This document shows positions 1,747 through 37,159 of a stretch of 64,000 nucleotides of DNA, one piece after another. Position numbers and translations under genes: made by a program. Below the pieces are notes generated by a model. The model did not search any database. It had not been told where the DNA came from and worked only from the letters and a program-made list of their open reading frames with translations. The stretch is from Polyangia bacterium (GTDB lineage Bacteria; Myxococcota_A; Polyangia; Polyangiales; Sandaracinaceae): assembly GCA_030426845.1 (NCBI GenBank), contig JAUHXR010000010.1, forward strand, positions 1-64,000, given 5' to 3'. How positions within the stretch are numbered: the first letter of the stretch is position 1; every line of letters begins with the position of its first letter.

Positions 1747-2037
1747 ATGGGCGACCTGCACCGCTCGCTCGCGGAGCTCCCGATCGGCGCCGAGGGTACC
1801 GTAGTCGCGGTGCGTTGCTCACGTCCCGTCGCGCGCCGGCTGATGGAGATGGGCCTCCTCCCCGGGACCCGCGTGGCGGTCGTCCGGGTCGCGCCGCTCG
1901 GCGACCCGCTGGAGCTGCGCCTGCGCGGCTACGCCCTGAGCATCCGCCGGCAGGAGGCGGCCGCGGTGATGCTCGAGGACGTGCGGGTCGCGGCGCCCGT
2001 GGCCACGCGCGCCCGGGCCGCGTCGGATCCCCGATGA
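1747..2037 (+). CDS. feoA: FeoA, ferrous iron transport accessory protein
   Basis: This is a 96-residue SH3-like cytoplasmic protein. Diagnostic features are the N-terminal SLAELPIGAEGTVVAV, the stretch RRLMEMGLLPGTRVAVVRVAPLGDP and the closing strand RGYALSIRRQEA, which together match FeoA. It is thought to bind and modulate FeoB during Fe(II) import. The ATG at 1747 is preferred because homology begins there and it sits 6 bases after a -10-like hexamer; upstream in-frame codons read through the operator. The stop overlaps the feoB start in an ATGA arrangement, so the two are translationally coupled. The C-terminus carries about 15 extra, basic, alanine-rich residues. Confidence 0.9.
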   Translation: MGDLHRSLAELPIGAEGTVVAVRCSRPVARRLMEMGLLPGTRVAVVRVAPLGDPLELRLRGYALSIRRQEAAAVMLEDVRVAAPVATRARAASDPR

Positions 2038-4214
2038 CCTCGGACGCGGGCTCGATCCGGATCGCGCTGGCGGGCAACCCCAACGCGGGCAAGACGACGC
2101 TCTTCAACGCGCTGACGGGCGCGAGCGGGCGCACCGGGAACTACCCCGGCATCACCGTCGACGTGAGCCGCGGCACGTGGCGCCTCGGTGGGCGCAAGGT
2201 GGAGGTCCTGGACATCCCCGGGACCTACTCGCTCAGCGCGCGCTCGCCCGAGGAGCGGGTGGCGGTCGACGCGGTCATCCCGCCGGCGGGGGACGGCCCG
2301 GAGCTCGTGGTCGTGGTGGTCGACGCCACCGCGCTCGCGCGGCACCTCTACCTCGCGGTCCAGGTCGTCGAGACCGGGCGGCCGGTGGTGCTCGCCCTCA
2401 ACATGATGGACGAGGCGGCCCAGCTCGGGGTCGACGTCGACGTGGCCGCGCTCGAGGCGCGCCTGGGGGTCCCGGTGGTCCCGGTGGTCGCCAAACGCGG
2501 GGAGGGCGTCGACGCGCTCGGCGCGGCGATCGAGCGGGCGCTCGAGGGGCACGAGACCCGGCCGCCCGAGGTGGTGAGCGACGCGCTCGCGCCGCTCGTC
2601 GGGCGGGTGGAGGCGGTGCTCGAGGCCGAGCGGCCGGCGGACGACGCGACCGAGCGGCGCGCGCGGGCGCTCTGGGCGTTGCTGTCGCTCGGCGACGACG
2701 AGCTCGATGTTACGCCGGCGCTCCGCGACGCGGTCGACGAGGCGCACCGAGAGGCCGAGGCGGCGGAGCGCGACCTCGACGAGGAGATCATCGCCGCGCG
2801 CTACGCCCGGATCGACGCGTGGGTCGGCGACGCGGTGCGCCGCCCCGAGGTCGACGCCCGCGCGCGCCTGGCCGATCGAGTCGACGGAGTGCTGACCCAC
2901 CCGGTGCTCGGCATCGCGATCTTCGCGGCGGTGATGTTCCTCCTCTTCGAGGCCCTGTTCGCGTGGTCCGACCCGTTCATCTCGCTGATCGAGGCGGGGG
3001 TCGGTGGCCTGCAGGAGCTGGCCGTCGCGGTCCTCCCCCCCGGGCCCCTGCAGGGCCTGGTGGTGGACGGGATGATCGCGGGGGTCGGCAACGTCGTCGT
3101 CTTCGTCCCGCAGATCGCGATGCTCTTCGTGTTCATCACGATCCTCGAGGACAGCGGCTACCTCGCGCGCGTCGCCTTCGTGATCGATCGCGTGATGCGC
3201 GGCGTCGGCCTCCACGGCAAGGCCTTCGTCCCGCTGCTGAGCGGCTTCGCCTGCGCGATCCCCGCGGTGATGGCGACGCGCACCATCCAGAGCCGGCGCG
3301 ACCGGATCCTCACCATGATGGTGGTCCCGCTCATGAGCTGCTCGGCGCGGCTGCCCGTCTATGCGCTGGTGATCGCCGTGGTCTTCGACGCCGACCGGCG
3401 GGTGTTCGGCGTGCTGTCGGTGGGCGCGCTCGCGCTCTTCGCGATGTACGCGCTCAGCGTGATCACGAGCCTCGGCGCGGCCGCGGTGCTCCGCCGCACC
3501 GTGCTGAAGGGACCGCGCCCGCCGCTCGTCCTCGAGCTGCCGCCGTACCGCTGGCCGACGACCCGCAACGTCTTGACCGCGGTGTGGGGTCGGACGCGCG
3601 CGTTCCTCGTGGACGCGGGCACGATCATCCTCGCGATCACGATCGTCCTCTGGGCGCTCCTGTCGTACCCGAACGACGAGGCGGCGGAGGCCCGGTTCGA
3701 GGCCGAGCGCGCGGAGGCAGCGGAGCAGCTCGAGGGCGACGCCGCGGAGGAGGCGATCGCGGCAATCGACGCGCGCGAGGCGGAGCACGCGCTGCGCGTG
3801 TCGTACGCGGGGCGCCTCGGCCACGCGATCGAGCCGGCGATCGAGCCGCTCGGGTTCGACTGGCGGATCGGCATCGGGCTCATCGGATCGTTCGCCGCGC
3901 GCGAGGTCCTGGTGAGCACGCTGGGGATCGTCTGGGGCATCGGCGACGACGCGGACGAGGAGTCGGTCCCGCTGCGCGAGGCCCTGCAGGAGGCGACCCG
4001 CGACGACGGCTCGCCGCTGATGACCCCGTTGAGCGGCCTCGCGCTGATGGTCTTCTTCGTCCTCGCCGCGCAGTGCATGAGCACGATCGCGGTGGTCAAG
4101 CGCGAGAGCGGCGGCTGGCGCTGGCCGGTCTTCATGGTCGTCTACATGACCGCGCTCGCCTACGTGGCCGCGCTCGTGACCTACCAGGGCGGCCAGCTCC
4201 TGGGGTTCACGTGA
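2034..4214 (+). CDS. feoB: FeoB, GTP-dependent ferrous iron transporter
   Basis: The 726-residue protein has an N-terminal G domain and a membrane transporter domain. G1 is GNPNAGKTT at residues 14-22, G3 is DIPG near residue 62 and G4 is NMMD at 123-126, so GTP binding is intact. A helical GDI-like linker (about 210-285) precedes the membrane part, which contains the Gate motifs, for example a segment with LSGFACAIPAVMATR and the repeated SCSARLPVYALVI. A charged alanine/glutamate-rich insertion lies near residues 550-590. It imports Fe(II) across the inner membrane. Coupled to feoA upstream and to a small membrane protein downstream by start/stop overlaps. Length is close to the family norm (about 770 in E. 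coli). Confidence 0.96.
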   Translation: MTSDAGSIRIALAGNPNAGKTTLFNALTGASGRTGNYPGITVDVSRGTWRLGGRKVEVLDIPGTYSLSARSPEERVAVDAVIPPAGDGPELVVVVVDATALARHLYLAVQVVETGRPVVLALNMMDEAAQLGVDVDVAALEARLGVPVVPVVAKRGEGVDALGAAIERALEGHETRPPEVVSDALAPLVGRVEAVLEAERPADDATERRARALWALLSLGDDELDVTPALRDAVDEAHREAEAAERDLDEEIIAARYARIDAWVGDAVRRPEVDARARLADRVDGVLTHPVLGIAIFAAVMFLLFEALFAWSDPFISLIEAGVGGLQELAVAVLPPGPLQGLVVDGMIAGVGNVVVFVPQIAMLFVFITILEDSGYLARVAFVIDRVMRGVGLHGKAFVPLLSGFACAIPAVMATRTIQSRRDRILTMMVVPLMSCSARLPVYALVIAVVFDADRRVFGVLSVGALALFAMYALSVITSLGAAAVLRRTVLKGPRPPLVLELPPYRWPTTRNVLTAVWGRTRAFLVDAGTIILAITIVLWALLSYPNDEAAEARFEAERAEAAEQLEGDAAEEAIAAIDAREAEHALRVSYAGRLGHAIEPAIEPLGFDWRIGIGLIGSFAAREVLVSTLGIVWGIGDDADEESVPLREALQEATRDDGSPLMTPLSGLALMVFFVLAAQCMSTIAVVKRESGGWRWPVFMVVYMTALAYVAALVTYQGGQLLGFT

Positions 4215-4366
4215 GCTGGGAGGCCGTGACCTGGCAGGAGGTGGCGGTCGCGCTGATCGTCTTCGCCGCGGTCGGGTTCCTCGTCTGGAAGATCGCGGGG
4301 CCGACCCGCCGCCCTCGCAAGCCCGACGTCGCGGCCCGGGACCTCGTGCGGCGCCATCGGGACTGA
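4211..4366 (+). CDS. Small single-pass membrane protein coupled to feoB
   Basis: A 51-residue protein starts at GTG 4211, overlapping the feoB stop (GTGA). One hydrophobic helix (about residues 10-26, VAVALIVFAAVGFLVWKI) is followed by a strongly basic tail rich in Arg and Lys, giving an N-out/C-in prediction. Many feo operons carry a small FeoB-associated membrane protein at this position with a Cys-rich tail. This one has no cysteine, so it cannot bind a metal in that way. A structural or assembly role for FeoB is inferred from coupling only. Confidence 0.6.
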   Translation: MSWEAVTWQEVAVALIVFAAVGFLVWKIAGPTRRPRKPDVAARDLVRRHRD

Positions 4367-4389
4367 GGGAGGCGCGCGGCCCCGACGCG

Positions 4390-4395
4390 TAGAAT
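4390..4395 (+). promoter_or_regulatory. Putative -10 box (TAGAAT) of the 4403 gene
   Basis: TAGAAT is followed by seven bases and the ATG at 4403, with no ribosome-binding site in between. The same hexamer appears 5 bases before the response regulator start at 33932. Confidence 0.5.
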
Positions 4396-4402
4396 GCCGC
4401 CG

Positions 4403-5203
4403 ATGGGGATCCGCATCGAACGGACGCGCGAGTGGCGCATCGACGACTCGGTCGTGTCCCTCGGCTCGGGGGGCATGTTCAAGCTCAAGGTCGACGTGGA
4501 CGGGCGCGCCGAGGCGATCCTCCCGGTCGGCGTCCAGGGCCGCTTCGTGATCCCGTGGAAGCGCAAGCGGGTCGAGCTGCGCCTGGTCGGTCCCAGCAAC
4601 GGCATCGAGGGCCTGCTCTTCGTCGACGATCTGCTCGTCGCCCCGTCCAAGGAGGCGCCGGTCCTCGGTGACAAGACGAAGTGCAAGGCCCACGGGAAGG
4701 AGACCCGCCGCCGCTGCCCCTCGTGCGACGACGTCGTCTGCGCGCGCGACCTCTCGGTCGACGGGGTCCGGTGCGAGGCGTGCTTCGCGACCGCAGGGGA
4801 GGCGGCCCGGTCCAACCGTCGGCGTGGCTGGTTCCTTGGCGCCGGCGCCCTGCTGCTCCTCGCGTTGATCGGGTTCTTTCTCGGTACGCAGGGCGTCGCG
4901 AGCGACTTCCTGCCGCGGATCGCGGGCGCCTTCATCGCCGGCGCGATCCTCATGGCGTTCACCGGGTTCCGTCAGAAGGACGGCGCGGGCTTCGGAGCGT
5001 TCGGCGAGCGCCTCGCGATCACAGAGGACCCGCAGATCGTCGGGGCGCGGTGCCCGGACTGCAAGAAGAAGGTCAGCCGCGCGCGCGATGGAGAGGTGTG
5101 CGAGGGCTGCGAGCGCGCGGTGCACGCCGCCTGCCTCGAAGCGCACGCCTGCCGGCCGGCCAAGCGCGGCCCCGACTGGGCCGCGATCCGCGCCGACGCC
5201 TGA
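4403..5203 (+). CDS. Membrane protein with two zinc-finger-like cysteine clusters
   Basis: The 266-residue protein begins with a beta-rich domain (about 1-90). A Cys/His cluster follows near 95-135 (CKAH, CPSC, CARDL, CEAC; B-box- or LIM-like). Two hydrophobic helices lie at about 145-165 and 172-190. The C-terminal cluster (CPDCKKK, CEGCERAVHAACLEAHAC) resembles a RING/PHD finger. Both clusters would face the same side of the membrane, presumably the cytoplasm. The ATG at 4403 is chosen over 4394 because the latter lies inside the TAGAAT hexamer. No known function; metal binding is inferred from the cysteine spacing. Confidence 0.75.
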   Translation: MGIRIERTREWRIDDSVVSLGSGGMFKLKVDVDGRAEAILPVGVQGRFVIPWKRKRVELRLVGPSNGIEGLLFVDDLLVAPSKEAPVLGDKTKCKAHGKETRRRCPSCDDVVCARDLSVDGVRCEACFATAGEAARSNRRRGWFLGAGALLLLALIGFFLGTQGVASDFLPRIAGAFIAGAILMAFTGFRQKDGAGFGAFGERLAITEDPQIVGARCPDCKKKVSRARDGEVCEGCERAVHAACLEAHACRPAKRGPDWAAIRADA

Positions 5204-5243
5204 CCCGGGTTGCGCTCGGCCCGCGGTGCGCCATGACCGAGTC

Positions 5244-5990: not shown

Positions 5991-6698
5991 TCAGGCGAGG
6001 ACCCAGAACGCGATCGCGGCGTAGTGGGCGCCGACCGCGGCGAGCACGAAGGCGTGGAACACCTCGTGGTAGCCGAAGTGCCCCGGCCACGGGTTCGGCC
6101 GCTTGAACGCGTAGGCCAGCGCGCCGATCGTGTAGAGCGCGCCGCCGAGGACGAGCATGCCGAGGCCGGACGCGCCGATCGCGTCCGCGAGGTGCGGGGC
6201 GGCGGGGATCCCCGACCAGCCGACGCAGACGTAGACCAGGGCGCGGACCCACTTGGGCGCGCCCGCCCAGAGCATGGTCACCAGGAAGCCCGCCGCGGCG
6301 ACGCCGAGCGCGAGGTAGAAGTAGGCCTCGAGCCCGCGCCCCTCGAGCGCGATCGCGAAGAGCGGCGCCTCGGTGCCCGTGATCAGCACGAAGATCATCG
6401 CGTGATCGAGCCGCCGGATCCGGCCGTACCAGGCCGGCGACCAGACGACGCGGTGGTAGAGCGCGCTCGTGCCCATGAGCAGGACGACGCTCGCCGCGAA
6501 GGCGAGGGCCGGCCAGCTCCGTGCGGCCGGGTTGAGCGCGATCATCGCCGCGCCCGCGGCCAGGTACCCGAAGAACCCGTAGACGCAGAGCATGCCGCGC
6601 TGGCTCGGGCGATCCTCGGGGGCCGCCTCGTCCGCGCTCAACGCGGGCGCGTCGGGGGCGGGTCGAGACGGCGAGTGGACCTGAGCGACGGAGGCCAC
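5991..6698 (-). CDS. trhA: Hemolysin III / TrhA family (PAQR) membrane protein
   Basis: The 235-residue protein has a charged, proline-rich cytoplasmic N-terminus of about 35 residues and seven hydrophobic helices. The PAQR metal-site residues are present: Ser and His in SALYHR, Asp in LDHAMIF and the two histidines in the final HEVFHAF. Bacterial members maintain membrane fluidity and have been named TrhA or YqfA; the old name hemolysin III comes from Bacillus cereus. The start is GTG 6698, which lies 6 bases after a TACACC hexamer. Convergent with the GST gene; a 7-bp hairpin (5984-6000) spans its stop codon. Confidence 0.9.
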   Translation of the reverse strand: MASVAQVHSPSRPAPDAPALSADEAAPEDRPSQRGMLCVYGFFGYLAAGAAMIALNPAARSWPALAFAASVVLLMGTSALYHRVVWSPAWYGRIRRLDHAMIFVLITGTEAPLFAIALEGRGLEAYFYLALGVAAAGFLVTMLWAGAPKWVRALVYVCVGWSGIPAAPHLADAIGASGLGMLVLGGALYTIGALAYAFKRPNPWPGHFGYHEVFHAFVLAAVGAHYAAIAFWVLA

Positions 6699-6704
6699 GA
6701 TCTA

Positions 6705-6710
6705 GGTGTA
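6705..6710 (-). promoter_or_regulatory. Putative -10 box (TACACC) of the hemolysin III gene
   Basis: The hexamer is followed by 6 bases and the GTG at 6698, with no Shine-Dalgarno sequence. This is the same leaderless geometry as at hemH, ftsE and others in this window. Confidence 0.4.
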
Positions 6711-6777
6711 CCGGATCGCGGGCCCGCGTTCGGTCACGGCTCGGTCATCGTTTCGTGCGTATTCGGTGAGGAGGCCC

Positions 6778-8496
6778 TCAGATCCCGAGCCGGGCCTCGT
6801 CGCCCAGGGTGATCGCGCCGATGAGGGCCCGCATGTCCCGGTCGCTGGCTACGAAGTCGGCGACGAGCGCGTCGAGCCGGGCGTCGTCCACCCCCGGGGT
6901 GAGGTCCCGGCCGACGAAGCGCTGGTAGGCGCGGCGGACCGCGCACCGATCGAGCTCGCCCGACTCCACGAGCGCCTGGCCGAAGCCGAGCGGGCCGATC
7001 GTGCCGTGGCCCTCGACGCCGAAGAGGCGCGTCCCCGGCGGCATGAAGTCGAGGAAGCGCGCGTCGCTGTTCGCGTCGAGCTGGGCCTGGCTCACCGGCG
7101 TCATCAGCGTGTCGGCGATCATCGAGCCCGTCGCGTGGCCGTGCAGCCGGAAGGTCGCTCCGCTCACCCGGCCGTCGATGCTCCACGCCTCGGTCGCGCC
7201 GGCGATGAACGCGCCCGCGTCGAACATCCGCTTGAAGTGCATCGCCGCCGGGTCGATGAGCTGGTGGCAGTGGAGGCACGGGCCCTCGCGCCCGGGGTCG
7301 CGCTCGTAGGGTGGGAAGGCGACGTCCGAGGCGGGCGGCGCGAACTCCCGGCACGCGAAGGCGCGGAGCCAGTTGGCGGCCCGTACGCGCTCGCGGGGCC
7401 AGGCCTCGTTCGCGACGATCGTCGTCAGCACGCCGGCCGCCGGTACGCCGCGCGGGCGGCCAGCGTCGGTGCGCGGGTCGAAGCGGTAGTCGCGCTCGGC
7501 GAGGAGCTGCGGGTGCAGGTCGTGGATCGGGACCTCGCGCCACGACTCGGGGCTCGCCGCGTAGGCGCGCCACCACGCGTCGTCGTCCATGAACGCGTTG
7601 TCCGGCGTCATCCGGGCTTGCCGCATGTAGGCCATGCGCAGGGTCCGCGTCGCGACGGTGTAGTCGCCGAGCACCAGGTCGCTGAACGGTCGGTCGTTCG
7701 CCACGATGTGCTCGAACAGGCGCGCCGGCTCCTCGTGCACCTGCCGGCGCATCGACTCGGGGCGGTAGTAGTCGCCCTCCTGCTCGATCGGGCGCTGCGC
7801 GCAGTAGATCAGGTTCGGGCCACACCCGCAGCCCTCGTGGCCGCGGAACGACGCGCGCCCGTCGCCGCAGTCCTCGCCGTTCACCCCGACGCGGTTCTCC
7901 GTGGCCACGTCGCCGATCGCAGGCACGGTGGTCCCCGGCGCCCACCACGGCTCGACGTCGGCGATCGGCGCGCTCGGGTCGTCGCAGATCCCGATCCACT
8001 GCCCGTACTCTTCGGTGACCGACGCGTTGTCGCGGAGCAGGCCGACGCGCCCCTCGTGCAGGGTCCCGGCCGGGCACGGGCGAGGCACCATCGAGAGCGC
8101 GCCGTCGAACTGGTAGGTGTGCGTGTTCAGCGCGCCGCGGTAGCCCGGCACGCCGAGGTACTCCTCGCCCCAGTCGCGCACCTGGGCGCGGAACTCCGGC
8201 GCCTCGAGCGCGTCCGCCACGAACGCCTCGAGGGCCGCGCGCCGCTCGGCCTCGGGGTGCGCGAGGAGCGCCTCGTACTCCTCCACCGTCGGCCCGCGCC
8301 CCAGCAGCGTGAGGGAGGCCCGCCGGAGCTGGCGGGTCGCGCTCATCTCGGGCGCCTCCTGGGCCTCGGCCGGCGCCGCCGCACCCACCACCAGGCCCAG
8401 CACCAGGCTCAGCGCGAGGCTCGTCCAGCCGAGCGGGGCGAGCCCTGTCGGACGCGCGCTTCGCGTGAGCCGGCCAGCGTCTTGAGCTCCCCTCAT
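6778..8496 (-). CDS. Secreted DUF1588/DUF1585-type cytochrome c protein
   Basis: A 572-residue protein with a long signal peptide (hydrophobic core about 24-40, cleavage after AEAQ). A CxxCH haem motif (CLHCH) sits at residues 407-411, followed by IDPAAMHFKRMFDAGAF, the pattern of DUF1588 (PSCyt3). The C-terminus (LVESGELDRCAVRRAYQRF, then a GRDLTP segment) matches DUF1585. These modules are best known from planctomycete and myxobacterial exported proteins of unknown role. The ATG overlaps the stop of the DUF1501 gene (ATGA), so both are translated together. It is shorter than the usual DUF1592 fusion proteins and has additional cysteine clusters (CGCGPNLIYC). A redox role is inferred from the haem motif. 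Confidence 0.8.
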   Translation of the reverse strand: MRGAQDAGRLTRSARPTGLAPLGWTSLALSLVLGLVVGAAAPAEAQEAPEMSATRQLRRASLTLLGRGPTVEEYEALLAHPEAERRAALEAFVADALEAPEFRAQVRDWGEEYLGVPGYRGALNTHTYQFDGALSMVPRPCPAGTLHEGRVGLLRDNASVTEEYGQWIGICDDPSAPIADVEPWWAPGTTVPAIGDVATENRVGVNGEDCGDGRASFRGHEGCGCGPNLIYCAQRPIEQEGDYYRPESMRRQVHEEPARLFEHIVANDRPFSDLVLGDYTVATRTLRMAYMRQARMTPDNAFMDDDAWWRAYAASPESWREVPIHDLHPQLLAERDYRFDPRTDAGRPRGVPAAGVLTTIVANEAWPRERVRAANWLRAFACREFAPPASDVAFPPYERDPGREGPCLHCHQLIDPAAMHFKRMFDAGAFIAGATEAWSIDGRVSGATFRLHGHATGSMIADTLMTPVSQAQLDANSDARFLDFMPPGTRLFGVEGHGTIGPLGFGQALVESGELDRCAVRRAYQRFVGRDLTPGVDDARLDALVADFVASDRDMRALIGAITLGDEARLGI

Positions 8497-10100
8497 ACCG
8501 CCCTCACTCCCAGGATCTCGTTGGGCCCGCCGCTGATCTCGGAGACCTCGTCCGGGATCCCCATGATCCGGTAGATGGTCCGGGCGACGTCGCGCGCCGC
8601 CGGGTGCTTCTGCAGGACGCCGGCCGCGCCGCCGTCCACGTCGAGCGCGACCCCGGTGGGGTTGTTCGGTTGGGTCGGATCGAGGTCGTAGCCGCCGACC
8701 ATGCGGTTGCCGTGGATGCCCCCGCCGATCAGCACGTAGCTGGTGAACGGCCAGTGCCCGTTGCCCGCCTCGAGGGCCGGCCACGCTCGCGCGAAGTCGC
8801 TGATCAGGACGACCAGGGTCTGATCGAGCAGGCTCTCGCCGCCGCCCATCGGGGTCGCCTTCATCTCGCCGAGGAGGCGGCCGATCACCTCGCAGGCGCC
8901 GCGCGTGCGGTTGAAGAGATCCGTCATCGGGCCCTGCCCGCTCGCGTGGATGTCGAAGCCCTCGCCGTAGGCCGCCGGCGCCTGCACGTTGATCGCGGTG
9001 CAGACGTCGGCCTTGAAGAGCTTCAGCGCCAGATCGAACTGCTCGCGCCAGGTCTCCCCGCTGTCGCCGTAGACCCGGCCGACCTGGAGCTGGTACGGGT
9101 TGTTGCCCTGCACCCAGTGCGGGTTCTCGCCCTCGAAGCCCGGCGTGGCCTCGAGGATCGTGACGAGGTCGAGCGCCATCTTGCGGCTCACCCCGACGTG
9201 GGCGTCGTAGAGGCGCTCGTAGAAGCCGTCGTCGCTGCGCCCGCGCAGCGCGCGGAGGCGCCGCAGCGCGTGCTGGTCCATCCGGGTCAGGGGGACCGCG
9301 TCGCCCGGCGTGCCGTCGAAGCCGGGGGTCGCGACCGCGTCCCGGTGCCGCAGCCCGTCCCACGCGGGTGTGTCGTCGGAGAAGGTCTGCGCCAGCGTGC
9401 CGAGCCCCGCGATGGTGGTCGGCGCGGCGTGGGCGGGCAGGCCGACGCGCGCGATCGGCGGCGTGCTCCCGCTCAGCCCCCCGGTCTTGATCGTGACCGC
9501 GCCGAGCGGCCGGTGGGTGCCCGCGAGGGCGAGCGCGTGGGCGGCGACGCAGTGGATGGCGGGGGCGGTGAACCGCGCCCCGGCCACGCCCGAGAGCGAC
9601 GCGCGCCGCCCCGAGTAGTGCTCGGCCGTCTGCTGGTCGACGCCGTGGATCACGCAGGTGTGCTCGGCGAGTCCGTAGTGGCGCCACGCGTAGCCCCACT
9701 GGCGGGGGATGTTCACGTCGGGCCAGGCGGGGCTCCCCGCGAAGCTCGCGGGGTTGCTCATCATCGCCTCGTCCCACACCGCCGCGGTGCGCACCCGCGG
9801 GTAGCGCGCGTCGTCGGCGTTCGGCGCCTCCCCCGTGCCGTCGAGGTTCTCGATCTCGGACGGCGAGGCGAGGTAGCTCGGCCAGTGGACCGCGGGCGTG
9901 GCCCGGTCGGTGAACGGGGCAAACATCATGGACGGTTGCCAGCCGCCCGGCATGTAGACGGTGAGGAGGCGCTTCGGGCCCGGGCCGAGGGCCAGCGCGC
10001 GGCCGCGGCTCGGCGAGAGCAGCCCGCCGAACGGCGAGAGGGCGCCGGCCGCGCCACCGCCGAGGGCGAGCTTGAGGAGGTCACGTCGGTTGAACGCCAT
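8493..10100 (-). CDS. Tat-exported DUF1501 family protein
   Basis: The 535-residue protein starts with a twin-arginine signal (NRRDLLKLALGGGAAGAL), so it is exported folded. The body matches DUF1501: an early strand LLTVYMPGGW, a central QQTAEHYSGRRASL segment where related proteins carry a conserved His region, and a late VVLISDFARAWP segment followed by GHWPF and VLIGGGIHGNRMVGG. The family belongs to the alkaline phosphatase/sulfatase-like fold, but no substrate is known. It lies 13 bases after the cytochrome lipoprotein gene and overlaps the DUF1588 gene by 4 bases, forming one operon of exported proteins. Confidence 0.83.
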   Translation of the reverse strand: MAFNRRDLLKLALGGGAAGALSPFGGLLSPSRGRALALGPGPKRLLTVYMPGGWQPSMMFAPFTDRATPAVHWPSYLASPSEIENLDGTGEAPNADDARYPRVRTAAVWDEAMMSNPASFAGSPAWPDVNIPRQWGYAWRHYGLAEHTCVIHGVDQQTAEHYSGRRASLSGVAGARFTAPAIHCVAAHALALAGTHRPLGAVTIKTGGLSGSTPPIARVGLPAHAAPTTIAGLGTLAQTFSDDTPAWDGLRHRDAVATPGFDGTPGDAVPLTRMDQHALRRLRALRGRSDDGFYERLYDAHVGVSRKMALDLVTILEATPGFEGENPHWVQGNNPYQLQVGRVYGDSGETWREQFDLALKLFKADVCTAINVQAPAAYGEGFDIHASGQGPMTDLFNRTRGACEVIGRLLGEMKATPMGGGESLLDQTLVVLISDFARAWPALEAGNGHWPFTSYVLIGGGIHGNRMVGGYDLDPTQPNNPTGVALDVDGGAAGVLQKHPAARDVARTIYRIMGIPDEVSEISGGPNEILGVRAV

Positions 10101-10113
10101 CGAGGGGCTCCCT

Positions 10114-11142
10114 TCAGTAGCTCAGCCAGAGGGGGTCGCGGACGAAGGCCGCGCAGACCGCGGTCCAGGCCGCGCGCGGCCCGGCGTCCGCCTCGGTCGG
10201 CAGGAAGACCGTCTCGAGCATCGCGTCGACGTCGGCGTCGCTCGCGACCTCGCCGAGCATGTGGAGGTAGAGGTAACGGATGTTGTCGCGGATCGCCGGC
10301 CGCTCGGTCGCGCTCGCGCTGTCGCGGGTCGCGTGCCGGAAGAGGACGTCGCGCGTCTCGACCGAGCGCGCGCACCACGCCTGCGAGAGCGGCACGAGGG
10401 TCAGGAGCATCGGCTCGCTGATCTCGGTGGAGGTGCGCTCACCCGCGAGGATGTGGCCGCCGCCGAGGTCCGCCCATGCCTCGTGGGCCGCCCCGCGCTG
10501 GTCGGTGCTCACCCGCTGCGGCGAGTCGTCGGGGCTCCCGAGCGGGCGACCGGTCTGCTCCACGTCGGCGTCCGTCAGCGCGAGCTGGCGCATCAGCTCG
10601 TCGCGGATCAGCTCCGCGGGGAGCCGGCGCGCGATCGGGCGCGGGGGCGGCGCGGGCAGCTCGCAGATCTCGAGGTCCTCGATCCACCGGCGCACCTCGG
10701 CGACGCTCACCCCGTCTCCGCCGTCGGCCACGATCTGCGCGTAGGACCGGTCGCCCGGCGGCATCTGGCCGAGGTTGTCCGAGGTGCCCTCGAGGAGCGC
10801 GACCAGCTCGCTGCCGTCCGGGTCGCCGGGGCGGACGTAGATGGGCTGACCCGTCGAGGGATCGGCGGCGCGGTAGGCGACCTGACGCTCGAACGCCTCG
10901 AGGCTCGCGAAGAGCGGCCGGTTGTCCTGTGGGCCGTGGCACCCGACGCAGCGCGCGTGGAGGCCCGCGTAGATCGCGTAGGTTGGCATCCGGCACTCCG
11001 ACAGATCCTCGGGGGGCGGCGGGGGGCCGCCCGGGCCGGGGCCGTCGGGGCGCGCGGGGCCATCGAAGATCGTGCCCTGGCAGCCGAGCGTGGCGCCGCC
11101 GAGCGTGAGGAGCGCGATCCAGGCGAGCGCGGAGCGGGTCAT
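10114..11142 (-). CDS. Cytochrome c-type lipoprotein
   Basis: The 342-residue protein has a lipoprotein signal (hydrophobic LAWIALLTLGGATLGC, acylated Cys near residue 21) and a proline-rich spacer. A CxxCH haem motif (CVGCH) stands at residues 65-69. A distal Met (LGQMPPGD) could be the sixth haem ligand, as in planctomycete-type cytochrome modules (PSCyt1). The C-terminal half is not recognised. The ATG at 11142 is chosen because the signal peptide starts there; a longer reading from 11229 adds 29 residues with no signal character. First gene of the three-gene exported operon, 141 bases from the hybrid kinase gene upstream. Confidence 0.78.
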   Translation of the reverse strand: MTRSALAWIALLTLGGATLGCQGTIFDGPARPDGPGPGGPPPPPEDLSECRMPTYAIYAGLHARCVGCHGPQDNRPLFASLEAFERQVAYRAADPSTGQPIYVRPGDPDGSELVALLEGTSDNLGQMPPGDRSYAQIVADGGDGVSVAEVRRWIEDLEICELPAPPPRPIARRLPAELIRDELMRQLALTDADVEQTGRPLGSPDDSPQRVSTDQRGAAHEAWADLGGGHILAGERTSTEISEPMLLTLVPLSQAWCARSVETRDVLFRHATRDSASATERPAIRDNIRYLYLHMLGEVASDADVDAMLETVFLPTEADAGPRAAWTAVCAAFVRDPLWLSY

Positions 11143-11283
11143 GCCGACGTGCTCTGCAGGCCGCGTGCCCGAGCCCGCCGGCGCGTCTGGCCCGTCGAGG
11201 TCTGTGCACCTGCGGTCCACAGCGCGCACCAGCGGGTCGCGATCCGGGGGGCGGGTGCGACCGTCGCGTCGCAGGTCGCGGTC

Positions 11284-12444
11284 TCAGCGGGCCCGCGCGC
11301 GCGCGGCCGCCTCTTCTCCCCGCTCGATGACCTCGGCCAGGGCGCGCAGCAGCGCCTCGGTCCGGTAGGGCTTGGCGAGGAAGGCGGCGCCCGGGTAGCC
11401 CCACCTCGCCACGTCGGCCGCCGCCTGCTCGCCGCTCACCACGACCAGCGGGAGCGGGCGGCCACGCGCGAGCAGCCCCGCCGCGACGTCGCGCCCGTCC
11501 ATCCGCGGCGTCGCCGCGTCCAAGACGAGCGCGTCGATCGTGGCCCCCGCGTCGATCAGCGCGAGCGCCTCCACCCCATCCACCACCGGGATCACCTCGA
11601 ACGCCGCCGCCTCGAGCAGCCGGCGGGTCGCGCGTCGGACCAGCTCCTCGTCCTCGACCAGCAGCACCCGGCGCCCCTGGCCCGGGTCGCGGCGGATCGT
11701 CCCTGACTGCCGCGTCGGCGGCGCGGCGAGGGAGGTCGCGTCGCGCCGCAGCGGCAGCTCCACGCGAAACGTCGCGCCCGCCCCCGGCGCCGAGTCGACC
11801 GTGATGGTGCCGCCGTGGAGGCCAAGGAGGTCGCGCACCGTGCAGAGGCCAAGGCCCGTCCCCGTCCCCTTGGTGGTGAAGAACGGCTCGAAGATGCGGG
11901 CGCGCGTGGCCTCGTCCATCCCCGACCCCTCGTCCGCGACCTCGAGCGCCGCGTGGGTCTGCCCCACCGTGAGCCGCAGCTCGATCGCGCCCCGCGCGTC
12001 CATCGCGTCGCGGGCGTTGACCACGAGGTTCAAGAGGATCTGCTCGACCCCGGCGCGCGGCAGATCGACCCACGACGGCCCCTCGTCGATCGCGGCGAGC
12101 AGCCGCACCCGCGCGCCCGCGATCCGGCGCAGGAGCGGCAGGAGGTCGTCGACCACCGTCCCGAGGTGGATCGCCTCGGGCGCGTCGCCACCCCCCCGGC
12201 TGAACGCCAGCACCCGCGCGGCGAGGAGCGTTCCCTGCTCGACCACGAGGTCGAGCTCGTCGACGAGCTCCGCCGATCGTTCGCCCAGCTCGTCGCGCAG
12301 CAGCGGGGTCACCGCGGTGATCACCGACAGGAGGTTGTTGAAGTCGTGCGCGACGCCCGTGGCGAGGCTCCCCAGGAGCTCGAGCCGCTGCGTCTCCGAG
12401 CGCGGCGGGCGATCGGACCCTCGCGCGTCATGCGACTCCCCCAT
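11284..12444 (-). CDS. Hybrid histidine kinase with C-terminal receiver
   Basis: A 386-residue cytoplasmic protein with no sensor domain. The H box GVAHDFNNLLSV puts the phosphorylated His at residue 33. N box (LLNLVVNARDAM), G1 (DEGSGMD), F box (FEPFFTTK) and G2 (GTGTGLGLCTV) follow in order, the NtrB-like arrangement common in myxobacteria. After a short linker comes a receiver domain: VLLVEDEELV, phosphoacceptor Asp309 in VLDAATPRMDG, and AKPYR. With no input domain it probably receives its signal from a partner. It lies downstream of the pilT gene on the same strand, 79 bases away, behind a TATCCT hexamer 7 bases before the ATG. Confidence 0.9.
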   Translation of the reverse strand: MGESHDARGSDRPPRSETQRLELLGSLATGVAHDFNNLLSVITAVTPLLRDELGERSAELVDELDLVVEQGTLLAARVLAFSRGGGDAPEAIHLGTVVDDLLPLLRRIAGARVRLLAAIDEGPSWVDLPRAGVEQILLNLVVNARDAMDARGAIELRLTVGQTHAALEVADEGSGMDEATRARIFEPFFTTKGTGTGLGLCTVRDLLGLHGGTITVDSAPGAGATFRVELPLRRDATSLAAPPTRQSGTIRRDPGQGRRVLLVEDEELVRRATRRLLEAAAFEVIPVVDGVEALALIDAGATIDALVLDAATPRMDGRDVAAGLLARGRPLPLVVVSGEQAAADVARWGYPGAAFLAKPYRTEALLRALAEVIERGEEAAARARAR

Positions 12445-35856: not shown

Positions 35857-36362
35857 ACCGCGCCGCGCTGCTGCTCCTGCTCGTGGGCGCGCTCACCGCC
35901 TGCTCGTCGGGCGAGCCGCAAGGGAGCCTCGCGGAGGCGTCCGGCGCGACGGCCGCCGCGGGCGAGACCGAGGCCAGCTCGGCGGCCGGCCCCGACGCGG
36001 ACCGCTTCGGCCAGCCGATCGACGGGAACCTGCCCATCACCTCGCTCGACGCCATCGTGGCCGACCCGAGCGGCTACGAGGGTCAGGTCGTGCGCACCCG
36101 GGGCGAGATCGCCCGCGTCTGCCAGGCCCGCGGCTGCTGGATGGAGCTGCGCACGAACCCGGAGAGCCCCGGCGTGCGCGTCCCGATGGCGGGCCACAGC
36201 TTCTTCCTCCCGATGGATTCCGCCGGGCGTCACGCCGAGATGCAGGGCCGCGTGGTGGTCCGCGAGCTCTCGCCCGAGTGGCGCGCCCACCTCGAGTCGG
36301 AGGGGGCCGTCGCGACCGCCTCGGCCCTGTCGATCGAGGCGACCGGCGTCGCGATCGACTGA
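35853..36362 (+). CDS. DUF4920 lipoprotein
   Basis: The 169-residue protein has a lipoprotein signal (LLLLLVGALTAC), an Ala/Ser/Glu-rich spacer (about 20-50) and a DUF4920 domain. The domain shows GYEGQVVRTRGEIARVCQARGCWM, with the diagnostic VCQxxGCWM, then VRVPMAGHSFFLP and GRVVVRELS. The OB-fold-like domain occurs in exported proteins of unknown function, often in bacteria that handle metals. It overlaps the NUDIX stop by 4 bases. Confidence 0.83.
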   Translation: MNRAALLLLLVGALTACSSGEPQGSLAEASGATAAAGETEASSAAGPDADRFGQPIDGNLPITSLDAIVADPSGYEGQVVRTRGEIARVCQARGCWMELRTNPESPGVRVPMAGHSFFLPMDSAGRHAEMQGRVVVRELSPEWRAHLESEGAVATASALSIEATGVAID

Positions 36363-36367
36363 GCTCG

Positions 36368-37159
36368 ATGGTCGACTCCCCCGAGCGGTGTCCGACCTGC
36401 AGCACGGTCGTGCCCGACGGGGCCGAGCGGTGCCCGGGCTGCGGGCGGGTCTTCGGCGAGGCCAACCGCTGCCCGCACTGCCACGCGATCGCGGCGGTGA
36501 TCGATCGCGGGAGCAAGACGGTGTGCGCGGCCTGCGGCAAGCCCCGGGTCGGCGCGACCGTCCTAGGGGGCACGCCGAAGGGAGCGGGCGCCGCGCCGCG
36601 GACCCGCGAGGGCCAGAACGAGAGCACCTCCGCGATGCTCCTGCGCGCTCGCGGGCGCACCCAGCGCGGGGCCGGCATCATCGCCCTCGCGATCGGGGTC
36701 TTCGCGGCCGCGGCCCTCGCGATGATCGTCCCCGGCGCCCTCGGGCTCGGGCTCGCGGCGGCGATGGGTGCGCTCTTCGTGGCGGTCGGCGCGCTCGCGG
36801 TCCGGGGCGGCGCGCGCAGCATGGAGGAGGCCCGCCGCCGCGACCGGCGAGCGACCGAGCTCGCCCTCCTCGAGGCCGCGCGCGCGGCGGGGGGAAGGCT
36901 CACCGCGACCGAGGCCGCCGCGGCTCTGCGGGTCTCGGTCGAGGAGGCGGACGCCCAGCTCACCGACCTCGTCGGTGACGGCAGCCGCGTGGACGTCGAC
37001 GTCGACGACGAGGGTGTGCTCCGCTACGTGTTCCGCGAGCTGGCCACCTCCCAGGTGAAGGTCCGGGTGGACGCGAGCGACGACGCCGGGCCTCCGGAGG
37101 AGCCTCACGAACTCGAGGCGGAGGCCGAGCGGGCGGAGCGCAGCCGCGAAGAGCGCTGA
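36368..37159 (+). CDS. Zinc-ribbon membrane protein with winged-helix-like tail
   Basis: The 263-residue protein begins with three CxxC pairs in zinc-ribbon order (CPTC, CPGCG, then CPHC with CAACG), within residues 8-60. Two hydrophobic helices follow at about 100-120 and 122-142. The C-terminal region (LTATEAAAALRVSVEEADAQLTDLVGDG) looks like a small winged helix, and an acidic tail closes the protein. This resembles membrane-bound zinc-ribbon proteins of myxobacteria of unknown role. It starts 5 bases after the DUF4920 stop, so it is the third gene of that operon. Confidence 0.72.
   Translation: MVDSPERCPTCSTVVPDGAERCPGCGRVFGEANRCPHCHAIAAVIDRGSKTVCAACGKPRVGATVLGGTPKGAGAAPRTREGQNESTSAMLLRARGRTQRGAGIIALAIGVFAAAALAMIVPGALGLGLAAAMGALFVAVGALAVRGGARSMEEARRRDRRATELALLEAARAAGGRLTATEAAAALRVSVEEADAQLTDLVGDGSRVDVDVDDEGVLRYVFRELATSQVKVRVDASDDAGPPEEPHELEAEAERAERSREER

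Follow-up and report, generated by a model that had tools for sequence, protein, structure and literature searches.

Three adjacent genes in the window, the 64,000-nucleotide stretch of Polyangia bacterium DNA analysed here, belong to a family of gene triads from Myxococcota that encode a haem-c lipoprotein (CYT1), a Tat-exported DUF1501 protein (D1501) and a second secreted haem-c protein (CYT3). We are confident that the triad is an evolutionary unit whose genes are inherited together. It looks like a split variant of the known pair of planctomycete cytochrome and DUF1501 protein, and we tentatively read it as a stand-alone redox complex of the cell envelope.

Organization of the locus

The coordinates of the three genes and of the junctions around them are given in Table 1. 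A sequence-only reading of this DNA had described the genes as tightly spaced, and indeed 13 bp separate the stop codon of P0001 from the start codon of P0002 and the next junction is an ATGA overlap, so that the three form one operon-like unit. No internal stops interrupt the three open reading frames, whose GC3 is 0.96-0.97. A scan of the gap 5′ of CYT1 found no match to the sigma-70 consensus.

Table 1. Features of the triad locus in the window.
Feature	Length	Coordinates	Strand	Description
CYT1 (P0001)	342 aa	10114..11142	minus	haem-c lipoprotein; PSCyt1 domain and C-terminal domain (~168-342)
D1501 (P0002)	535 aa	8493..10100	minus	Tat-exported DUF1501 protein (predicted)
CYT3 (P0003)	572 aa	6778..8496	minus	secreted haem-c protein (predicted)
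ATGA overlap	4 bp	8493..8496	minus	CYT3 start codon over D1501 stop codon
Gap	~140 bp	11143..11283	minus	from CYT1 to the upstream hybrid histidine kinase gene; possible promoter site

Directly upstream and codirectional lies a gene for a hybrid histidine kinase with a receiver domain (11284-12444, minus strand), and a haemolysin-III-like gene follows downstream of the triad; neither neighbour is a conserved companion of the triads. A FeoB ferrous iron transporter is encoded at 2037-4214 (plus strand), a few kb away from the cytochrome genes. A further CxxCH occurs in the open reading frame at 36278-37159 (plus strand), which was rejected as another cytochrome since Pfam suggests a double zinc ribbon.

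Conservation of the triad in Myxococcota

Relatives were searched for with a P0003 profile in one-per-species genomes, which gave 59 loci, about 54 of them with strong relatives. The genome scan used two short P0003 motifs, and absence outside Myxococcota is thus suggestive only; a contig scan of the genomes with P0002 alone returned no relatives. All the named hosts are Myxococcota (Myxococcus, Corallococcus, Pyxidicoccus, Archangium, Hyalangium, Polyangium, Minicystis and Sandaracinus) and the remaining ones are bins labelled Myxococcales, Deltaproteobacteria or proteobacterium. The family was present in 19 of 290 sampled genomes of the class and in 14 of 379 of the phylum, which makes its distribution patchy.

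On contigs long enough to tell, all three genes were found in 51 of 51 related loci, leaving aside two loci cut at contig ends (L097 and L103) and an incomplete one (L106). A conserved neighbourhood in related genomes, on which the sequence-only reading had staked its case, is therefore there. The gene order is CYT3-CYT1-D1501 in 49 loci, while the rotated order of the window, CYT1-D1501-CYT3, recurs in the other two (L055 and L060); the intergenic gaps are mostly shorter than 90 bp. The tree groups the window with L055 (support 0.999) and places L060 close by, within a seven-member clade, so that the rotation may have arisen once or twice. The pairwise distances of CYT1, D1501 and CYT3 correlate at r 0.97-0.98, a value to which shared species history contributes.

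The neighbourhood of the triads was also searched for genes that could hint at a substrate, and none is recurrent: even the most frequent neighbour family is limited to 8 of 58 loci, and no glycan-active gene, LPMO or carbohydrate-binding module turned up repeatedly in these 58. The lack of a recurrent neighbour family, together with the completeness of the triad, supports the earlier description of the set as minimal and self-contained.

The two cytochromes

CYT1 carries a lipobox (TLGC, Cys21), which a simple pattern search detected in 45 of 54 CYT1 sequences, and the haem motif CVGCH at residues 65-69. CYT3 has a type-I signal, read from the sequence as AEA|QE, and the haem motif CLHCH at 407-411. 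By chance a CxxCH would be expected about 0.0006 times in a protein of the length of P0001 and about 0.001 times in one of the length of P0003. Motifs and signals thus uphold the proposal that both are exported haem-c proteins, as predicted from the sequence. On the second point of refutation that the same reading had set, a lack of covalent haem, the motifs speak in its favour as far as sequence goes, being invariant in 51 CYT1 and 50 CYT3 sequences.

In CYT1, C65, C68 and H69 are kept in 51 of 51 sequences and Met127, within Q-M-P, in 50 of 51. Met127 is the probable axial haem ligand, and such conservation is what an electron-transfer cytochrome would show. The PSCyt1 match of P0001 reaches the Pfam cut-off (22.0 bits), and the haem domain has the CxxCH and Met of class I c-type cytochromes, an assignment made on sequence features; searches with P0001 and with the family profile found no sequence match among solved cytochromes. 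From about residue 168 on no Pfam match was found in P0001.

CYT3 keeps ten Cys throughout, two for the haem and eight further ones, and its only invariant His are His263 and the His411 of the haem motif. No Met is conserved across the 50 sequences that might act as axial ligand, M465 being replaced by Leu in 31 of them. The weak Pfam matches of P0003 outline a DUF1549-like N-terminus, a DUF1592/DUF1588-like middle and a DUF1585-like C-terminus, and all are under their cut-offs: 27.7 vs 29.8 bits for DUF1549, 21.3 vs 23.3 for DUF1592, 11.9 vs 27 for DUF1588 and 22.3 vs 25.8 for DUF1585. The protein thus misses the gathering scores both for PSD4-PSCyt3-PSD2 (DUF1592-DUF1588-DUF1585) and for PSCyt2-PSD1, PSD1 not being found in it by Pfam. 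We therefore rejected the plain label of DUF1588/1585 protein for P0003; the part of that label which stands is the recurrence of both domains in the family, where matches at E<=0.1 were obtained for DUF1585 in 44 and for DUF1588 in 34 of 50 members, next to DUF1549 in 49, DUF1800 in 22 and DUF1592 in 20.

With the P0003 model (pLDDT 83.3, pTM 0.87) as query, a fold search of the PDB yielded nothing at E<=0.001. Phycobilisome linker domains came up with a weak likeness (Z 5.7 over 110 residues, plus a 12-bit sequence match), which we set aside because common arrangements can reach such values. No relevant relative in the PDB emerged from phmmer and profile searches with P0001, P0002 and P0003.

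Relation of the cytochromes to PSCyt2-PSD1 proteins

In order to place the parts of the two cytochromes we aligned ten PSCyt2-PSD1 proteins of the same class, a small set, as reference. In profile-profile comparison the N-terminus of P0003 aligned with columns 116-175 (probability 95), its C-terminus with columns 345-425 (probability 93.5) and the C-terminus of P0001 with columns 440-563 (probability 81.4, at 18% identity and with gaps), whereas reversed, shuffled and unrelated (DUF1501) controls stayed at a probability of 4.6 or less. These matches suggest that one PSCyt2-PSD1 (DUF1549-DUF1553) polypeptide is represented, with its parts in the same order, by P0003 followed by the C-terminal half of P0001; the C-terminal domain of P0001 is probably a relative of the corresponding end of PSD1/DUF1553. 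The common gene order, CYT3 before CYT1, is also the sequence of parts in the single protein. Gene fission would be the simplest reading, and a fusion in the other lineage fits equally.

Two paralogous operons elsewhere in the same genome (L028 and L030) combine a CYT3-like protein and a DUF1501 protein with a small lipoprotein lacking CxxCH, and these lipoproteins match only the C-terminal part of CYT1 (hmm ~210-335; E 6e-11 and 3e-10), which points to that domain as the more widely shared partner; the haem domain of CYT1 looks like an addition to it. The first of these operons (C467, 2446-7683) has four genes, for a 473-aa CxxCH protein, the CYT3-like protein, the haem-less lipoprotein and the DUF1501 protein. 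At a further locus (L026, on C338) a tandem duplicate at 2879-5215 and 6686-9169 encodes proteins of 780-830 aa with two CxxCH, each followed by a DUF1501-like gene; by weak scores, each of these proteins seems to carry a CYT1-type haem domain in front of a CYT3-like part. That one polypeptide is apparently divided between two subunits gives a hint of how the larger proteins are built.

The DUF1501 protein

P0002 begins with a Tat signal (MAFNRRDLLKLALGG), with the twin-arginine motif in NRRDLLKLALGG at its N-terminus, and such a motif is present in 54 of 54 D1501 relatives. With this motif, a hydrophobic stretch and TatC in the genome, the protein has the marks of a Tat substrate. Its match to DUF1501 (PF07394) is above the Pfam cut-off (29.1 vs 27 bits), and a match at E<=0.1 was obtained in 50 of 50 aligned family members. 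The AlphaFold model (pLDDT 83.8, pTM 0.87) matched PafA best (Z 18.0, rmsd 4.3 over 282 residues), followed by NPPs and choline sulfatase (Z ~17), although a plain Foldseek search reached a best E of only 1.6e-3. The predicted fold is thus that of the alkaline phosphatase superfamily, in agreement with the sequence-only reading, which had named P0002 a Tat-exported member of it.

In the alignment of 50 D1501 sequences, D155, H161, D383 and H449 never vary; H385 is found in 48, D448 in 49 and E491 in 47. The window's P0002 keeps D383, H385 and H449 at putative metal-ligand positions; it is the sole sequence without D448, having Gly there, and E491 is changed as well, so that its catalysis may be impaired or different. 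The Ser/Thr/Cys nucleophile of alkaline phosphatases is not obvious in the D1501 alignment; judging by the spacing from a conserved Gly, His161 may stand in its place.

These residues bear on the possibility that D1501 is itself the enzyme, a hydrolase or transferase of the alkaline phosphatase superfamily acting on a phosphorylated or sulfated molecule of the envelope or of prey, with the haems serving stability, regulation or sensing. The strong predicted fold, whose matches include glycan sulfatases and phospho-transferases, and the conservation of D383, H385, D/E435 and D448-H449 across the family would fit such a role, which we nevertheless consider unlikely: the haem motifs equal the phosphatase-type residues in invariance, the usual nucleophile is missing from view and the window copy is without D448.

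Proposed function

We return to the redox complex, in which we tentatively place the three proteins as follows. The lipoprotein CYT1 would anchor the complex to a membrane, and its His/Met haem would hand electrons to the respiratory chain or to another acceptor. CYT3, with a haem without a conserved Met ligand, would either be where the redox chemistry takes place or carry the electrons first, and D1501 would bind the substrate, which the sequence-only reading had also supposed to be held by this protein, and perhaps hydrolyse it or transfer a group on it. The two cytochromes would represent a PSCyt2-PSD1 polypeptide in two pieces, the second headed by an extra PSCyt1 haem domain. One TatC and three cytochrome-c assembly matches were found in the genome, which makes export and haem attachment possible. 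Our confidence that the triad acts in redox is moderate. That its substrate is a glycan or a similar polymer, at the cell surface or derived from prey or biomass, would be the most likely choice and is held with low confidence; it comes from the literature, where PSCyt proteins were suggested to use carbohydrates because they come with carbohydrate-binding modules and have sulfatases as neighbours (PMC5615132), the DUF1501-DUF1800 pair adjoins chitin synthase in some bacteria (PMC5122149) and Cbp2D of Cellvibrio japonicus supports the use of cellulose (PMC8981238).

Cbp2D, a proposed electron donor to LPMOs which by domain content is the nearest studied relative of the triad, also inspires a second alternative, namely that the triad delivers electrons to a secreted oxidase encoded elsewhere, such as an LPMO, in the manner of Cbp2D, with D1501 as the positioner on the polymer. 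The CjX183 domain of Cbp2D, a class-I cytochrome c with His/Met ligation, reduces LPMOs; Cbp2D also has DUF1587 and a second CxxCH domain, and the knock-out of Cbp2D and Cbp2E slowed growth on cellulose (PMC8981238). In CYT1 a spacing of 16 residues separates the invariant Ser111 from the near-invariant Met127, and the same distance is found between Ser50 and Met66 of CjX183, a likeness in spacing only. Since the searches matched CYT1 to no solved cytochrome and the triads have neither an LPMO nor a carbohydrate-binding module as recurrent neighbour, we regard this delivery of electrons as improbable.

A bolder version of the envelope redox complex, to which we give a similarly small chance, would be a new oxidoreductase in which a nucleophile-less protein of alkaline phosphatase fold presents the substrate to a cytochrome of no solved fold. 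If true, the widespread DUF1501/PSCyt/DUF1800 sets of Planctomycetes and Proteobacteria would be versions of this one machine.

The window's copy and its paralogues

The assembly of the window has eight DUF1501 matches, at least five of which adjoin cytochrome-like genes, and a DUF1800 locus (L112). A second, canonical triad is found on C77 (L024), and the window copy may thus be specialised or impaired. It is divergent, with a best identity to any relative of ~49% for P0003 and ~42% for P0001 and P0002, and its CYT3 departs from the family at D315, E378, D497 and K507. Divergence, the change of several near-invariant residues and the canonical triad in the same genome could all be explained by independent, merely co-localised secreted proteins or by a decaying, functionless paralogue in the window, but the three frames, the signals and both haem motifs are intact and the triad is never broken up in the 51 loci, which leaves this the least probable of the alternatives.

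Comparison with known systems

The sequence-only reading had called the system undescribed, which is too strong. PSCyt/DUF1501 gene sets were described, without a function, in Planctomycetes and Verrucomicrobia (PMC5615132, PMC2754498); in Rhodopirellula baltica two such domains are present in 41 copies each (PMC2754498). Moreover, a haem domain of Cbp2D, a protein of related domain content, was characterised (PMC8981238). Dozens of DUF1501 and PSCyt genes are present in some Planctomycetes without an assigned role; with a three-gene, context-free and always complete triad, some hosts of which are cultured (Myxococcus, Corallococcus, Archangium), this role would become testable, including which proteins bind each other, what each haem does and what the substrate is.

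The PSCyt1/PSCyt2/PSD1 and PSD4/PSCyt3/PSD2 sets of Planctomycetes, where this type of cytochrome was first met, and Verrucomicrobia have neighbour genes of unknown families such as DUF1501 or DUF1552 (PMC5615132). The triad shares with them the PSCyt1 domain, the DUF1549-, DUF1592-, DUF1588- and DUF1585-like regions and an adjacent exported DUF1501 protein. It differs in that the cytochrome parts are on two proteins, with PSCyt1 on a lipoprotein that has a PSD1-like C-terminus, and in that most Pfam scores of the window's P0003 are below the curated cut-offs. With the DUF1501-DUF1800 pair it has in common a Tat-exported DUF1501 protein beside its partner and the DUF1800 matches (E<=0.1) of 22 of 50 CYT3 sequences, a weak link; the triad, unlike that pair, has two haem-c proteins.

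Cbp2D resembles the triad in being exported and in having two separate single-haem c domains, of which X183 is His/Met-ligated, and a planctomycete-type domain, DUF1587 (PMC8981238); no significant sequence match with the triad proteins was found. Unlike the triad it is a single large protein whose domains (CBM2, X158, FN3, X183, DUF1587 and X132) include some that bind carbohydrate and quinone, and a DUF1501 partner does not figure in the part of its description covered here (PMC8981238). P0002 shares its overall fold, as modelled, with PafA, NPPs and sulfatases (Z ~15-18 over 230-280 residues), and differs from the alkaline phosphatase superfamily in an identity of ~7-15% and, in the window copy, in the Gly that replaces the Asp of the D-H pair. 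Since P0003 and the C-terminus of P0001 together resemble one PSCyt2-PSD1 polypeptide, the system that the triad most looks like is the planctomycete cytochrome and DUF1501 pair, of which it would be the Myxococcota variant.
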